DNA of 64,000 nucleotides from an uncultured bacterium (GTDB taxonomy: Bacteria; Nitrospirota; Thermodesulfovibrionia; Thermodesulfovibrionales; Dissulfurispiraceae). The position numbers and the translations under genes are program-made. This document shows, in pieces, positions 3,385-9,675 of the stretch; the stretch's first letter is position 1, and each line of letters starts with the position of its first letter. The DNA lies in NCBI GenBank assembly GCA_937949555.1, contig CALEDV010000010.1:1-64000 (forward strand), given 5' to 3'. The notes under the pieces are model-generated. The model searched no databases and was not told where the DNA came from. It was given only the letters and a program-made list of their open reading frames with translations.

Positions 3385-5352
3385 CTATTTATCCCTGTCA
3401 AGCACCTCCCTTATCTTCCTTAACAATATATTTGGGCTTACAGGTTTTGGGAGAAAATTTATTCCCTCCTCAAGCATATTTCTTTTGCTTAATATCTCTG
3501 TTGCATAACCGCTTGTAAAGATTGCCTTAATGTCCGGTTTTAGCTTGCGGATCTGTTCGTATGCATCTTTACCATTTTTCTTGGGCATAATAACATCAAA
3601 CAACAATAGGTCAATATCCTCCTTGTTAGCCTTGAATTTTATTATCGCCTCCTCCCCATCAATTGCCTCTATTACTTTGTATCCATGATTTAATAGTATT
3701 TCCTTTGTAATTGCCCTTACATCTTCACTATCTTCAGCAAGCAGAACCGTTTCTGTACCATAAGGTATATCGTTTTCATCTCTCTCATTATCCTTTGCCT
3801 CTGTAAATGTCTTAGAAACCAGCGGGATGTATATCCTAAAGTCTGTCCCTTTGGTACGATAACTGGAGACAAATATATAGCCGTTATGCTGTTTTATTAT
3901 TCCATACACCATCGCAAGACCAAGCCCCGTACCTTTACCCTTTTCTTTTGTGGTAAAAAAGGGCTCAAAGATCCTATTAAGGGTCATCTCATCCATGCCT
4001 ACTCCTGTATCGGTAATCCTCAAAAGGGCATATATCTTATCCGGTTTTACGCCCTCAAATCCCCTTTCTTTTATGGGAGAAAGGCTTGTGGCAACAGTCA
4101 ATGTCCCTCCCTCAGGCATTGCATCCCTTGCGTTAGTGGCAAGGTTCATGATTACTTGCTCAATCTGTCCAGGGTCTACAAATACCATAATATCTTCATT
4201 GTGTAAATCCATCCTTAGTTGGATATCCTCACCAATAAGCCTTGATAGCAGCCTTTCCGTGCCTAAGATTATATCATTGAGATTGACCTGTTTTGGTGAT
4301 AGGATCTGTTTTCTGCTAAAGGCAAGCAGGCTCTTTGTCAGGACAGAGGCCTTTTCTGCAGCATTAAGAATCTGGTCAAGATACAATCTGTTTTGATCAT
4401 CGGGAGATAGGTTGTTTTTCGTCAAACTGCCATATCCGATTATGGCTGTCAGAATATTATTGAAATCATGGGCTATCCCTCCTGTTAATTGCCCAACGGC
4501 TTCCATCTTTTGTGCCTGATGGAGTTGATCAGCAAGACTTCTCCGTTCGGTAATGTCCTGAAGGATAAGGATGCTTGCAACGATGTTGTTCTTAGAATCC
4601 ATTACAGGCGCAGCGCTTGCAATAACCCATCTAATTTCACCGGAATCCCGTTTTATTATCATCTCCACATCCTTTACTGTGGAGCCGTTCATAATGGCAA
4701 GGGACTGGGGTAACTCGTAGTATTTATACCTTCTTCCATCGGCATGGAAAAAGTTCCATTTCTCAGGCTGCTCAATCATGGAGATATTTGTGAGTTTGGC
4801 ATTGGTCTCTCCTCTGATAGAGAGGGCTGCCGCATTGGCAATTCTTATATTGCCAGTAGGGGCATCAAAAACAAGTATTCCAGAGGGTGACTGCTCTATG
4901 GCAGCCCTTAGCAACGCCTGGATAGTAACCGTAGCATTTTCCTGCTCTTGTAGCCTCTTTGTAAGCTCTATCTCATCGGCGTATCTTTTAAAGGACCTTA
5001 GCAGCTTGTTCTTGTCAATAGGTTTGAGGACATAGCTGTCTATACCAATATCTATTGCCCGCAAGAGATTCTCTGTGTCTCCATAGGCAGTGGTAACGAT
5101 GATAGGGGCATCTTTCTTGAGAGCCTTGATCTTTGCAGCCATCTCAAGGCCATCCATAATAGGCATTCTTATATCCGTCAGGACGATGTCAGGCCTGAGT
5201 TTTTCATACATCATAAAACCCTCAAGTCCATTCTCTGCAGTGTGTATCTCTCTGACATTCTTTGAGAGAATATTCACAAGCATATTCCTTATGAAAAGGT
5301 CGTCTTCTACATAAAGAAGAGATACGTCAAGCATGTGGGATTTATTTTGCAT
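3385..5352 (-). CDS. Hybrid sensor histidine kinase (receiver-PAS-kinase-receiver)
   Basis: 655 residues, soluble. Domain order: receiver (about 8-125; phospho-acceptor Asp60 in TDIRMP, Lys110), short coiled coil, PAS (about 148-270, ending QDITERR), HisKA with His295 in GGIAHDFNN, HATPase (N box NLATNARDAMP; G boxes DTGVGMDE and GKGTGLGLAM), and a C-terminal receiver with Asp586 in FDVIMP. The C-terminal receiver followed by SGY and LPKP is typical of cytoplasmic NtrB-like hybrid kinases. The gene stands alone: no neighbour is an obvious target. The N-terminal receiver is similar to that of the regulator at 178-948, so the two may belong to one phosphorelay. Methionine 7 is an alternative start. 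Confidence 0.9.
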   Translation of the reverse strand: MQNKSHMLDVSLLYVEDDLFIRNMLVNILSKNVREIHTAENGLEGFMMYEKLRPDIVLTDIRMPIMDGLEMAAKIKALKKDAPIIVTTAYGDTENLLRAIDIGIDSYVLKPIDKNKLLRSFKRYADEIELTKRLQEQENATVTIQALLRAAIEQSPSGILVFDAPTGNIRIANAAALSIRGETNAKLTNISMIEQPEKWNFFHADGRRYKYYELPQSLAIMNGSTVKDVEMIIKRDSGEIRWVIASAAPVMDSKNNIVASILILQDITERRSLADQLHQAQKMEAVGQLTGGIAHDFNNILTAIIGYGSLTKNNLSPDDQNRLYLDQILNAAEKASVLTKSLLAFSRKQILSPKQVNLNDIILGTERLLSRLIGEDIQLRMDLHNEDIMVFVDPGQIEQVIMNLATNARDAMPEGGTLTVATSLSPIKERGFEGVKPDKIYALLRITDTGVGMDEMTLNRIFEPFFTTKEKGKGTGLGLAMVYGIIKQHNGYIFVSSYRTKGTDFRIYIPLVSKTFTEAKDNERDENDIPYGTETVLLAEDSEDVRAITKEILLNHGYKVIEAIDGEEAIIKFKANKEDIDLLLFDVIMPKKNGKDAYEQIRKLKPDIKAIFTSGYATEILSKRNMLEEGINFLPKPVSPNILLRKIREVLDRDK

Positions 5353-5499: not shown

Positions 5500-5694
5500 T
5501 TAAGCCCGGCCTGAGGACTTGTTTTCTGAGGGGCTTACCTTTTTCAACTTAAATCCCCGGCACTGTTCCCCAGAGGCAAGATAGACCTCCTTAGAAGGGA
5601 TAACCCTTGACTTAAAGGACATCAGTTTACAGCCATAGGGGAACTCCTTAATCCAGGTGATAAAAAAGTGGGCACACTTAAAACAATCAATCAT
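5500..5694 (-). CDS. Small Cys-containing protein (FKC..FxITW..FPYGC family)
   Basis: 64 residues beginning MIDCFKCAHFFITWIKEFPYG and continuing CKLMSFKSR, then ASGEQCRGF. Four cysteines lie in a CxxC...C...C pattern, suggesting a small metal- or Fe-S-binding protein. I recall short proteins of this pattern in anaerobic bacteria, sometimes mislabelled uracil-DNA glycosylase; no function is established. The ATG at 5692-5694 overlaps the stop of the response regulator (ATGATTGA), so it is translationally coupled as the last gene of the operon. A longer frame that runs back over the regulator is not the real start. Confidence 0.75.
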   Translation of the reverse strand: MIDCFKCAHFFITWIKEFPYGCKLMSFKSRVIPSKEVYLASGEQCRGFKLKKVSPSENKSSGRA

Positions 5695-6061
5695 TAGCCT
5701 CAACAATACTACGAACAACCTCAAGCAGCTCATCGGGAGTAAAGGGCTTTTCAAGATAAAAAAGGGCGCCCCTGTCAATGGCTTTTTGACTTTGTTCAAT
5801 AGTGTGGTATCCTGACATAAGTATTACCTTTTGCAGGGGATCCTTGTCTTTGATCCTCCTTAGAACCTCAAACCCATCAATCCCTGGCATCTTATTATCC
5901 ACAATTACAAGGGCAAATCTACCCCTATCGAAGATCTCTAATCCCTCTAATCCAGACAGAGCGGTCTCCACTTCATAACCCTCGCTCTTCAGAGCCCTTT
6001 GACAACTAAGGGTTATTATCACCTCATCATCTATAACAAGTATCTTTTTTGCCCTTAGCAA
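5687..6061 (-). CDS. Single-domain response regulator
   Basis: 124 residues, receiver only. Acidic pair DD near 11-12, phospho-acceptor Asp55 in VDNKMPG, and a Lys followed by PF near the end. There is no output domain, so it must act through protein contact. It starts with TTG and overlaps the preceding ATPase gene by 7 bases, and it overlaps the following small Cys gene by 8. It is the natural partner of the membrane histidine kinase that begins the same operon (8497-9675). Confidence 0.85.
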   Translation of the reverse strand: MLRAKKILVIDDEVIITLSCQRALKSEGYEVETALSGLEGLEIFDRGRFALVIVDNKMPGIDGFEVLRRIKDKDPLQKVILMSGYHTIEQSQKAIDRGALFYLEKPFTPDELLEVVRSIVEAND

Positions 6062-6591
6062 TGGCTTATACCACTGTTTACATGATTCTTGATAAAGTCC
6101 AAGATAGGCGGAGAGGTTATATCCTGATCCTCAAGCCCCCTTTTTAACTCTGCCGTATTAATCTCATAGGTGTAGTCGGCTTTCTTGTATATAAGTTCGT
6201 AATCAATCTCAGGATGTCCCGCAATAAGGGTAACGATTGTAGCGCCCAGATCTCCAAGGGGTTTCATATCCATATGACTCCTCTGAAAGGTTGCCTGTAT
6301 CTTTGTTCCTCCACCGGGGGTAGAGATTATACTCAACCTCCCATTACACTCCTCTGCCGACTGCGCCAATAGAGGAATCCCCAAGCCAAAGTTTCTGACC
6401 CTCTTTGTGGTGAAAAAGGGATCCAATACCCTTTTTAGTGTCTCCTCGTCCATTCCAACCCCGTTATCGGTTATCCTTATTGTCAGGGTGTCAGCCCTTT
6501 CATCTTCAACTATCTCTATATTAATCAGGTCAGCCTTTGCAGCGATAGAGTTTTCTGCTATATCGAGTATATGTAAAGACAGATCCTCCAT
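6055..6591 (-). CDS. HATPase_c protein of the hydrogenase-associated type
   Basis: 178 residues. Starts MEDLSLHILDIAENSI; the Bergerat-fold boxes are visible: N box ENSI, G1 DNGVGMDE, G2 NFGLGIPLL, with DPFFTTK between them. There is no dimerisation His, so it is an ATP-binding module rather than a complete kinase. The C-terminal extension (HPEIDYELIYKK) is typical of the ATPase found next to PHP and DRTGG genes in [FeFe]-hydrogenase loci of clostridia and deltaproteobacteria. Here it ends 2 bases before the PHP gene's 3' end, and all genes are tightly packed. Confidence 0.8.
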   Translation of the reverse strand: MEDLSLHILDIAENSIAAKADLINIEIVEDERADTLTIRITDNGVGMDEETLKRVLDPFFTTKRVRNFGLGIPLLAQSAEECNGRLSIISTPGGGTKIQATFQRSHMDMKPLGDLGATIVTLIAGHPEIDYELIYKKADYTYEINTAELKRGLEDQDITSPPILDFIKNHVNSGISHC

Positions 6592-6592
6592 A

Positions 6593-7333
6593 CTATTCCC
6601 TCCTTACCCTAAGTCTGTCTTTTTCTTTAAAAGCCGCAGCAATCCCCTTGAAAGACAATTCATCAAGTTTAAACATTGTGTATGCTATCCCAATGTCATT
6701 TAGTGTGTGGGCATCGGAGTTCCTAAGCCAGGGGAGATGACGGTAACTTGCAAAACGCTCTAAGGCTGCTTTCATGCTTATACTATAGGAAATCTCCAGG
6801 GCATCTATTGCAACCTCTGGGGGTATAAATCCAAGTTGAGATATTAAACTGAAGCATTCCCTATCCACATGACTCGCCACAGCCAATCCTCCACATCGGT
6901 GTATCTTAGTTACAATATCTGCTGCACTTAATGAGGTTGCTCCAAAAAGTGTTTTTCCATTAAAGTCCAGTATCTCTTCATCTTCGTTGACCACCAGCTG
7001 GTATACAGGGTCTTGATTTGCGAGGCCATCTTCAGGTAAAGACCTATAAACAAGGCTCTGCATCTCCATAGCACAGTCCAATGTCTCAAAAAGGGCAAGT
7101 ATATGCACCTCCTCTTTGGAGGTTATCTCCATAGCAGGAATCAACAGGATCCCTTCCCTGTCCGCTATAAGAGAGGCTGTCAGGAGATTTTCGGCTGAAT
7201 TATGGTCTGCTATAGCAATTACCTGAAGCCCTATCTCCTTTGCCCTTTTTATTATTCTAAGGGGAGTAATATCAATATCTGCACAAGCAGAAAGACAGGA
7301 ATGTATATGAAGGTCTGCCTTGAAGTATCTCAA
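6593..7333 (-). CDS. PHP-domain phosphoesterase
   Basis: 246 residues. Metal-binding motifs of the PHP family are in order: DLHIHSCLS at 7-15, ADHNS near 42, a Glu in AMEIT, ASHVDRE in the middle and NSDAH near the end. These proteins hydrolyse phosphate esters using two or three divalent metals. The version with the CLSxCA insertion belongs to the set found beside DRTGG and RsbW-like genes in hydrogenase operons. The substrate is unknown. The ORF opens with TTG without a strong ribosome-binding site, so the start is slightly uncertain; the HIH motif fixes it to within a few residues. Confidence 0.85.
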   Translation of the reverse strand: MRYFKADLHIHSCLSACADIDITPLRIIKRAKEIGLQVIAIADHNSAENLLTASLIADREGILLIPAMEITSKEEVHILALFETLDCAMEMQSLVYRSLPEDGLANQDPVYQLVVNEDEEILDFNGKTLFGATSLSAADIVTKIHRCGGLAVASHVDRECFSLISQLGFIPPEVAIDALEISYSISMKAALERFASYRHLPWLRNSDAHTLNDIGIAYTMFKLDELSFKGIAAAFKEKDRLRVRRE

Positions 7334-7357
7334 AATTCAGTTATGTAAGGCCTGCTT

Positions 7358-7693
7358 TTATTGAGAAAGCAAGGTGTATATCTTTCCGGCTGCCTCAAAG
7401 GTGCTCCCGGAAAAAACAAGTATCGTCATTTTTTCCTTCTCTGCCCTCTTTGCAGTCTCCTCTTCTGGCCTTCTGTTGTTAGTAAGAATTATCGCTGATA
7501 ATCCTTTTATAACCGATACAGCCACTATGTTTGGATGTATCTGCAAGGTTATCCATATTTCTCCCTCTTTGCTCTTTGCCATTACATCAGACAACAGGTC
7601 GCTTATATAGCACCCTTTGACCATCCTTTCCATGTCACCCTTAACTGCCACCTGTGCCCCTAAACTTTCAACTACCTGAGCGACTGTTATCAT
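7358..7693 (-). CDS. DRTGG-domain protein (second copy)
   Basis: 111 residues, starting MITVAQVVESLGAQVAVKG, with YISDLLSDVMA and IVAVSVIKGLSAIILTN. This is the short stand-alone DRTGG fold, related to the middle domain of some phosphotransacetylases and likely to bind a small ligand. Its ATG overlaps the stop of the RsbW-like gene (ATGA). With the copy at 8129-8494 it brackets the RsbW-like ATPase, the usual arrangement in hydrogenase loci. Confidence 0.75.
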   Translation of the reverse strand: MITVAQVVESLGAQVAVKGDMERMVKGCYISDLLSDVMAKSKEGEIWITLQIHPNIVAVSVIKGLSAIILTNNRRPEEETAKRAEKEKMTILVFSGSTFEAAGKIYTLLSQ

Positions 7694-8154
7694 CTTCTCT
7701 CACCCCTATCATTCAATAATATTTTTATCTCCAATGTTGTTCCCTCTCCAATAACCGTGTCAATATTGAATTCATCAGAGTTTTTCTTTATATTAGGCAA
7801 TCCCATCCCTGCGCCCCAGCCCATCTCACGCACCCAATCCGGAGCTGTGGAATAGCCTTCCTGCATGGCAAGCTCTATGTTAGGTATGCCTGGTCCCATA
7901 TCTGTAACCGTAATAAGTATGTGGTCTCGGGTAATGATATAATGCAGGCTCCCTGCGACTCCATGGATAATAACATTCATTTCTGCCTCAAAGGCGGCTA
8001 TGGCCGCTCGTCTGATAATATCCTCATCAACACCTAAATCCATCAAGACCCTCTTCATCGCACTGGAGGCAGCGCCTGCATTGGCAAAATCACCCTCAAG
8101 GAGTTGGAAAGAGGCCTCTATGGGCTCGTTAATCCTCTCTATTTTGTTGTTCAT
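7690..8154 (-). CDS. Anti-sigma-factor-type (RsbW-like) ATP-binding protein
   Basis: 154 residues. HATPase_c fold of the anti-sigma/serine-kinase kind: AFEAEMNVIIHG (N box), DMGPGIPN (G1) and GMGLPNI (G2). Proteins of this type either phosphorylate an anti-sigma antagonist or bind a sigma factor, but no sigma factor or antagonist is encoded here. The partners are more likely the DRTGG proteins on either side, with which it overlaps by 4 and 26 bases. Confidence 0.8.
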   Translation of the reverse strand: MNNKIERINEPIEASFQLLEGDFANAGAASSAMKRVLMDLGVDEDIIRRAAIAAFEAEMNVIIHGVAGSLHYIITRDHILITVTDMGPGIPNIELAMQEGYSTAPDWVREMGWGAGMGLPNIKKNSDEFNIDTVIGEGTTLEIKILLNDRGERR

Positions 8155-8494
8155 GACAGCTCCTTAGACCATGTTCATAGAGTTTGCCGCAGGCAGTAAA
8201 AAGGGACATAGGCGAGCTTATGAGGGCTATGTTTTTTTCCTCTGCCATGGACATCATATCCTGCGAGATAGGTTTTCCAAGCACCACAAGCACCGCAGGA
8301 ATATCTGCAAGCTCAGCAGTCCTGATAACCTGCGTCTGGTTCAGAGAGGTTATAAGCAGCGCGCCCTTTAGGGCATACATCAGGGCATCACTCATCATGT
8401 CTGAGCCACAGACCGATTGTATCTCTAAAGAATCGCTCATGCCCTTTGCAATCAATCTGCCTTCAACAACGCGTAATATATCGGCTATTTTCAA
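8129..8494 (-). CDS. DRTGG-domain protein (first copy)
   Basis: 121 residues. MKIADILRVVEGRLIAKG, then VCGSDMMSDALMY, the diagnostic signature region, and IPAVLVVLGKPIS. The start codon is TTG at 8492-8494, preceded by GAGGAT at a good distance. The Cys-containing C-terminus (CGKLYEHGLRSCHEQ) overlaps the next gene. Ligand unknown; such domains are assumed to sense a nucleotide or another small molecule and report to the partner ATPase. Confidence 0.78.
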   Translation of the reverse strand: MKIADILRVVEGRLIAKGMSDSLEIQSVCGSDMMSDALMYALKGALLITSLNQTQVIRTAELADIPAVLVVLGKPISQDMMSMAEEKNIALISSPMSLFTACGKLYEHGLRSCHEQQNRED

Positions 8495-8496
8495 TG

Positions 8497-9675
8497 CTAT
8501 CCTCTCGCTTTTTCAGTATTTATCTCGGGGGCTTCCTTTGTCCTCAAAGGAAGCCTTATGTAGAAACTTGCCCCCTGTCCAGGCTGACTTGAGACATTAA
8601 TTTGTCCCTCATGTTTTTTTATTATGCCGTAGCTTACCGACAATCCCAAGCCCGTGCCTTTCCCGGTAGGTTTTGTGGTGAAGAAAGGCTCAAATATACG
8701 GCCTTTTATCTCTGGAGGCAGACCAGGACCTGTATCATGAAAGGCTATCTCCACATAATCACCATCCTCTTCCTTTGCTATGGATGTTGCAATGGTGACC
8801 TTGCCCCTGCCTTCCATGGCATCAGAGGCGTTTATGAGCAGATTAATAAAGACCTGTTGCATCTGATTGGGGTCAACGATTATATCAGGTATACCCTTGT
8901 CTAATTGTAGGTCGAAGGTGACATTATGAAACTTCATCTGATTCTTGACGATCATCAGGGTGTTTTCAATAAGGTCATTTATATCGGTCTTCTTCTTCTC
9001 AGAGGCTGCCTTTCGTGAAAAACCCAGTAGCCCGCTTACGATCCTTGAACACCTCTCTGCCTGTCCTATTATGACCTTTAGGTCTTCTATGTCCTCTGTC
9101 CGATCCTCTGGTGTCCTCTTAAGCATCATGTGTGCAAAGGTTATGATACCTGTAAGGGGACTATTCATCTCATGCACTACGCCTGCTACCATCCTACCTA
9201 ATGAGGCCAGTTTCTCAGCATTAATCAACTGCTCCTGGGCCCTCATGATCTCTGCCGTCTTCTTCTCCACCTCCTGCTCTAATTCCTTGGTCCAGTTTTC
9301 CATCTTTTCCTTGTATATCTTGAGTTCCCCAGACATAGAATTAAAGGAGCCTGCAAGTATCCCAATCTCATCTTTGTTTTTTAACTCTATGCGATGCTCC
9401 ATATCACCAGCAGCAAGCTTGCCCATTGCATCTACAAGTTTGCCTATCGGCTTAGTAACAAAGCTATAAAGGATTATCCCAAGGGCCGTGGAGATTACAA
9501 TAACAAAAGAAACGCCATATAAGAGCACTTCTACGGTCTTTACCTGGGGGTTGTTGGCTATGAATAGATAAGTAAAAAGCACACCCCATATCACCATCAT
9601 ACTTCCAATGGTGAAGATGAGTTTCCATGTTAGCGAATGGAAGATATAAAATATCATGTTTTTTTGCACAAGCAT
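8497..9675 (-). CDS. Membrane sensor histidine kinase (TM-HAMP-HisKA-HATPase)
   Basis: 392 residues. Two membrane segments (about 18-40 and 48-72) are separated by a very short loop, so the sensor has almost no periplasmic domain. HAMP runs at about 73-125, then a coiled coil and HisKA with His168 in VVHEMNSPLTG. HATPase has N box NLLINASDAM, DTGPGLPP, and GKGTGLGLSV. It is the first gene of the leftward operon, two bases upstream of the first DRTGG gene. This family often senses redox or membrane state, but the signal here is unknown. Its phospho-partner is probably the receiver at 5687-6061. Confidence 0.88.
   Translation of the reverse strand: MLVQKNMIFYIFHSLTWKLIFTIGSMMVIWGVLFTYLFIANNPQVKTVEVLLYGVSFVIVISTALGIILYSFVTKPIGKLVDAMGKLAAGDMEHRIELKNKDEIGILAGSFNSMSGELKIYKEKMENWTKELEQEVEKKTAEIMRAQEQLINAEKLASLGRMVAGVVHEMNSPLTGIITFAHMMLKRTPEDRTEDIEDLKVIIGQAERCSRIVSGLLGFSRKAASEKKKTDINDLIENTLMIVKNQMKFHNVTFDLQLDKGIPDIIVDPNQMQQVFINLLINASDAMEGRGKVTIATSIAKEEDGDYVEIAFHDTGPGLPPEIKGRIFEPFFTTKPTGKGTGLGLSVSYGIIKKHEGQINVSSQPGQGASFYIRLPLRTKEAPEINTEKARG

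Follow-up and report, generated by a model that had tools for sequence, protein, structure and literature searches.

What does a compact set of signalling genes control when no hydrogenase is encoded beside it? The question is raised by positions 5500 to 9675 of a 64,000-nucleotide stretch of DNA (hereafter the window) from an uncultured bacterium of the Dissulfurispiraceae (assembly GCA_937949555.1, contig CALEDV010000010.1, positions 1 to 64,000). The first-pass annotation described a hydrogenase-type cassette of DRTGG, RsbW-like, PHP and ATPase genes with no hydrogenase nearby, and suggested a device that stands alone, its target unknown. The operon is read here as the regulatory module of a bifurcating-type iron-sulphur flavoenzyme, NuoE-NuoF-NuoG (NuoEFG), which is linked to reduced nicotinamide adenine dinucleotide (NADH) and encoded on another contig (C17) of the same genome. 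The probability of this reading is put at roughly 72%. Four lines of evidence link the cassette to a NuoEFG enzyme that carries a receiver domain: genomic neighbourhood, co-occurrence, fused domains and sigma-54 promoters. The eight cassette genes form a head-to-tail series on the minus strand, from 9675 down to 5500:

8497..9675, minus strand: membrane histidine kinase (HK), 392 amino acids, HAMP-HisKA-HATPase_c (Pfam), first gene of the cassette
8129..8494, minus strand: DRTGG1 protein, 121 amino acids, Pfam PF07085 (33 bits)
7690..8154, minus strand: RsbW/SpoIIAB-like GHKL ATPase, a putative Ser/Thr protein kinase, 154 amino acids, Pfam HATPase_c_2, similarity to NCBIfam spIIAB
7358..7693, minus strand: DRTGG2 protein, 111 amino acids, Pfam PF07085
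6593..7333, minus strand: PHP metallophosphoesterase, 246 amino acids, TTG start, Pfam PHP and PHP_C
6055..6591, minus strand: GHKL ATPase with an extra C-terminal alpha/beta domain, 178 amino acids, Pfam HATPase_c
5687..6061, minus strand: single-domain response-regulator receiver, 124 amino acids, Pfam Response_reg
5500..5694, minus strand: small Cys protein, 64 amino acids, ATG at 5694, read from the sequence

Pfam bears out both the DRTGG/RsbW/PHP/ATPase gene set, in the core order DRTGG-RsbW-DRTGG-PHP-HATPase, and the two-component pair, with the HisKA/HATPase kinase at one end and a receiver with its phospho-acceptor Asp at the other. The genes had been described as all overlapping; this holds for four of the seven junctions (26, 4, 7 and 8 bp), while at the other three the genes are separated by 2, 24 and 1 bp. 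No Pfam or NCBIfam model matched the small Cys protein. It is nevertheless real, being encoded in many of the relatives' loci, where C4, C7, C22 and C45 are invariant. Promoter and terminator scans of the window returned no more sites than shuffled sequences did. A gene for a hybrid REC-PAS-HisKA-HATPase-REC kinase (window 3385-5352), also on the minus strand, lies just downstream.

Is the cassette a conserved unit? A single orthologue of the PHP gene is found in 36 of the 60 genomes of the order, that of the window included; when 198 genomes of the phylum are considered, 39 have an RsbW orthologue. Gene order in relatives was read from 35 sampled cassette neighbourhoods in the order, across which the arrangement HK-(DRTGG)-RsbW-DRTGG-PHP-HATPase-REC recurs. 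In 26 of these loci a cassette-type HK gene neighbours PHP, and 19 encode an NtrC-type activator. Judging by the orthologues in 36/60 genomes and their common order, the gene set is far beyond chance.

The residues expected to matter are also kept. The PHP protein has invariant H9, H11, D43, H44, E69, H77, H155, D207 and H209, metal ligands included (27 sequences). E56 and N60 of the RsbW-like ATPase are invariant in 75 relatives. The same is true of D10, N14, D42, G44, G46 and H106 of the GHKL ATPase (66 sequences), nucleotide-binding motifs included, and of the phospho-acceptor D55, D11/D12 and K105 of the receiver (29 relatives). On these grounds the parts look functional. Both DRTGG proteins likewise have invariant positions, D32, S35, L38 and T49 in DRTGG1 (61 relatives) and W47, T49, Q51, H53 and N55 in DRTGG2 (102 relatives). 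In the AlphaFold2 model of the GHKL ATPase (predicted local distance difference test, pLDDT, 90.7), a histidine-kinase-like catalytic domain is followed by a small alpha/beta domain at the C-terminus. For a related natural fusion of DRTGG and RsbW (L136), the model shows a SpoIIAB fold joined to the DRTGG domain of a clostridial pyrophosphatase regulator; since the linker is disordered in this model, no DRTGG-RsbW interface was read from it.

The neighbourhoods of the Nitrospirota relatives point to the partner. In 13 of the 35 loci of the order, the cassette adjoins or sits inside an operon that encodes NuoE, the thioredoxin-like [2Fe-2S] subunit, with a receiver attached to it (REC-NuoE); a ferredoxin-like protein of 127 amino acids; a NuoF of the HydB type; and a NuoG/FdhA-like subunit of 820 amino acids. 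In several loci the cassette and NuoEFG genes are merged into one operon. The genome of the window (2.41 Mb in 85 contigs, 88.9% complete) has REC-NuoE, NuoF and the NuoG/FdhA-like subunit on contig C17 (L074), with the flavin mononucleotide (FMN) loop of NuoF intact. Over the 60 genomes, 33 have both the cassette and a NuoG-type complex, 3 the cassette only, 8 the complex only and 16 neither (p=2.7e-6, without phylogenetic correction); the corresponding counts for REC-NuoE are 32, 4, 7 and 17. The receiver Asp on NuoE is 97% conserved. In the genome that has lost it (G016), the cassette is reduced to a remnant of PHP, HATPase and Cys protein genes. Fusions include REC-NuoE, REC-RsbW and HATPase-REC; together with the CBS-RsbW and DRTGG-RsbW fusions, they are natural joins that, as far as sequences can tell, make the pieces one machine. 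Thus the stand-alone proposal is not supported by the comparison across the order, and NuoEFG is well supported as the predicted partner.

The target is read as kin to the NuoEF part of bifurcating hydrogenases, and its NuoG-like subunit resembles formate dehydrogenases. In four complexes this subunit has Gly-Tyr at the position taken by Sec-His in a formate dehydrogenase of the genus that contains a TGA codon. An NAD-dependent formate dehydrogenase was therefore rejected as the identity of the C17 enzyme because the catalytic Sec/Cys-His is absent.

How might expression of the enzyme be connected to the cassette? The -24/-12 promoter recognized by sigma-54 has the consensus TGGCACG-N4-TTGCW. 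A site was called when it matched at least 9 of 12 consensus positions within about 200 bp upstream of an operon. Such a site precedes the REC-GcvH/REC-NuoE/ferredoxin/NuoF/NuoG operon in all 14 genomes with a cassette NtrC, as against 3 of the 12 genomes without it (p=7e-5); the background in random windows is 2.8%. In those three genomes the cassette genes share an operon with the NuoEFG complex. The activator and the site are also missing together. Both are absent from G030, whose congeners retain both, and from G034, while G046 and G057 of the same family retain both. The genome of the window encodes RpoN, and neither a cassette NtrC nor a sigma-54 site at the NuoEFG operon was found in it. 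The protein that heads the sigma-54-controlled operon in relatives is a fusion of a receiver and a glycine-cleavage-H-like domain (L053:4326-5090, L082:8390-9169 and orthologues). A role as a lipoyl carrier was rejected for this receiver/GCV_H (Pfam) protein, which by eye has no lysine at the lipoyl position.

Does the association extend beyond the phylum? A scan of 84,980 species genomes was limited to the best 80 loci by similarity to the Nitrospirota profile, which came from Nitrospirota, Desulfobacterota, Aminicenantes, Cloacimonadota, KSB1, Chloroflexota, Chlorobi and others; Clostridia were not among them. In 53 of these 80 loci NuoE or NuoF is encoded within 8 kb of PHP. An HdrA-like subunit is present in 14, a PF02906-domain protein resembling a sensor hydrogenase in 27, and a bona fide HydA near the cassette in one (L167). 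The terminal subunits beside the cassette-linked NuoE/NuoF thus vary across phyla, being NuoG/Fdh-like, HdrA-like or, rarely, HydA. The fusion partner of RsbW also differs by lineage, being a CBS pair, a receiver or DRTGG. The core gene order is that of the hydrogenase-associated set, but the label "hydrogenase-type" is too narrow for a cassette that adjoins NuoE/NuoF with varied terminal subunits. The pattern indicates, at the level of gene content, that the cassette goes with the NADH (NuoEF) module and not with a hydrogenase; the property sensed or controlled would therefore be NADH/ferredoxin coupling rather than hydrogen. The sensor-type protein (450 amino acids; L106:8308-9657 and 26 other loci of the wide survey) has ferredoxin, PF02906 and FeS domains, is encoded between RsbW and DRTGG2, and is likely a sensor relative of [FeFe]-hydrogenase. 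It was not found between these genes in the window, and the genome as a whole lacks PF02906.

The reported absence of a hydrogenase or Nuo-like gene in the 64-kb window is confirmed, with no match to the HydA, NuoF and NuoG profiles; a 22-bit NuoE match on the RsbW of the window was rejected as an artefact of a profile contaminated by a REC-RsbW fusion. It can be extended to [FeFe]-hydrogenases genome-wide, as no PF02906 protein was found in this 88.9% complete genome and HydG gave only sub-threshold matches, none above the cut-off. [NiFe]-hydrogenases do exist on other contigs. One of them (C42:32137-33687) is a large subunit whose gene has two in-frame TGA codons, possibly for selenocysteine. 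Among the 60 genomes of the order, one has both the cassette and HydA, 35 the cassette only, 5 HydA only and 19 neither. The sole relative with both (G011) has a hydrogenase variant whose NuoE is without a receiver. The first-pass annotation had held that a co-regulated hydrogenase operon elsewhere in the genome would make this an ordinary split locus. That is not literally what was found, but the equivalent for a NuoEF-type enzyme is present on C17. Accordingly, the locus is best viewed as a split-locus form of the cassette that regulates bifurcating-type NuoEF enzymes, probably wired through two-component phosphorylation.

How could such a module work? An envelope signal would lead to phosphorylation of the membrane HK, from which phosphate would pass to a pool of receivers. 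This pool would comprise the cassette's own single-domain receiver (5687-6061), the one on NuoE and, for many relatives, the NtrC activator, which would turn on the NuoEFG operon through its sigma-54 promoter. The DRTGG proteins may gate the RsbW-like kinase, which may form an opposing kinase/phosphatase pair with the PHP phosphoesterase; this pair may set the state either of NuoEFG or of the DRTGG proteins themselves. Coupling of the switch to the enzyme could fall to the GHKL ATPase, through its extra domain. Given that the genome of the window has neither a cassette NtrC nor the sigma-54 promoter, only the direct branch through the NuoE receiver would be left there. More specifically, the membrane kinase may phosphorylate the NuoE receiver and so switch electron flow post-translationally, and RsbW/DRTGG/PHP may give the complex a second switch, of the Ser/Thr type and gated by nucleotide; this detailed version is tentative.

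Several observations weigh against assigning the cassette to NuoEFG. The complex lies on a different contig in the genome of the window, and no promoter common to the two was found there. Three genomes (G005, G006 and G011) have the cassette without a NuoG-type complex and eight have the complex without the cassette. In G001, of the same genus and assembled in 340 contigs, the cassette is present and yet only a NuoF without the FMN loop was seen. Several of the genomes are fragmented, and the p-values are uncorrected for phylogeny. The phosphotransfer steps from HK to the receivers are inferred. By contrast, G002, of the same genus, fits the assignment, as it has neither the cassette nor a C17-type operon; it has only the degenerate set described below and an orphan REC-NuoE.

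Could these facts be better explained otherwise? A stand-alone device with an unrelated target would agree with the lack of such a redox enzyme gene within 64 kb and with the different contig of NuoEFG, but it is improbable in the face of adjacency in relatives, co-occurrence, fusions and sigma-54 co-variation, which all indicate NuoEFG. The RsbW protein does have the SpoIIAB/RsbW fold, and flagellar genes lie just upstream of the cassette on the same strand, so that a partner-switch acting on a sigma factor (in general stress or flagellar control) comes to mind. However, Pfam found no STAS domain, and hence no STAS antagonist, among the cassette proteins, and the neighbours in relatives are not consistently flagellar, whereas NuoEFG recurs; such a switch is very improbable. 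Least credible of all is a relic of an [FeFe]-hydrogenase locus, drifting or decaying after the loss of hydA. In other phyla, comparable sets do include a protein resembling a sensor [FeFe]-hydrogenase, and sensory and bifurcating hydrogenases with His/Ser kinases between them have been described (PMC3561251). Yet HydA is almost never present in cassette genomes, and PHP, RsbW, HATPase and REC keep their catalytic residues invariant over many genomes without HydA.

A closer competitor accepts the partner and differs on the role. Signalling would be transcriptional only (HK-NtrC-sigma-54), and the DRTGG, RsbW, PHP and HATPase proteins would be assembly or maturation factors of NuoEF. PHP and GHKL ATPases indeed accompany NuoEF enzymes even where no HK or NtrC is nearby. 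The regulatory input domains fused to RsbW (CBS pair, receiver, DRTGG) mean that signalling fits better than assembly, and the genome of the window retains the set without NtrC; an assembly role is thus unlikely, though it merits more attention than the other alternatives.

The regulatory module of NuoEFG can be compared with several known systems. In clostridia, sensory hydrogenases are reported upstream of bifurcating ones, often with a histidine/serine kinase between them (PMC3561251). Regions with a sensory [FeFe]-hydrogenase and a His/Ser kinase upstream of trimeric bifurcating hydrogenases include TM1420-TM1426, Csac_1857-1864 and TTE0887-0894 (PMC3561251, PMC10055695). The present loci share with them a kinase-containing cassette beside a NuoE/NuoF-type NADH flavin module and, in relatives, a small [2Fe-2S] ferredoxin-like protein (Fd12). 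They differ in having no HydA or sensor hydrogenase here, a membrane HK and receiver proteins instead, a NuoE that bears a receiver, and a terminal NuoG/Fdh-like subunit without catalytic Cys/Sec. The RsbW protein resembles the SpoIIAB/RsbW anti-sigma kinases in fold (TMt 0.8, on the natural DRTGG-RsbW fusion) and in its conserved catalytic E/N; unlike them, it has no STAS antagonist in the cassette, and relatives encode it joined to CBS, receiver or DRTGG domains. The DRTGG fold is shared with the CBS-DRTGG region of family II pyrophosphatase (PDB 3l31, 3l2b) and with AF1212 (2ioj), but the cassette DRTGG proteins are small, stand-alone and paired with a GHKL kinase. As in NtrC-type two-component systems, an HK, an NtrC activator and a -24/-12 site occur in many relatives. 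In contrast to those systems, a receiver is also fused directly to an enzyme subunit, NuoE, and the genome of the window has no cassette NtrC. To our knowledge, accessory kinases beside bifurcating hydrogenases have been observed before and their role has never been demonstrated. No paper on DRTGG/PHP/hydrogenase sets or on a receiver-bearing NuoE turned up in the literature searched. The NuoE-fused receiver and the co-variation of NtrC with the sigma-54 site provide a concrete, testable wiring scheme for the control of such complexes by anaerobes.

Further relatives of the enzyme are encoded in the genus. The genome of the window has a second ferredoxin/NuoF/NuoG set on contig C27 (L169). The NuoF paralogue of this set in the genus (L169:7387-9231, L171:6410-8254, L175:1348-3213) is without the FMN/NADH-binding loop GDEGDPGAFMDR and stands beside a NuoG-like gene; the set is possibly a repurposed complex. 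An orphan REC-NuoE (L075:9523-10452, on contig C63 of the same genome) lies beside a ubiE-like methyltransferase gene, away from any NuoF/NuoG, and similar orphans are present in G002 (L076) and G001 (L077).

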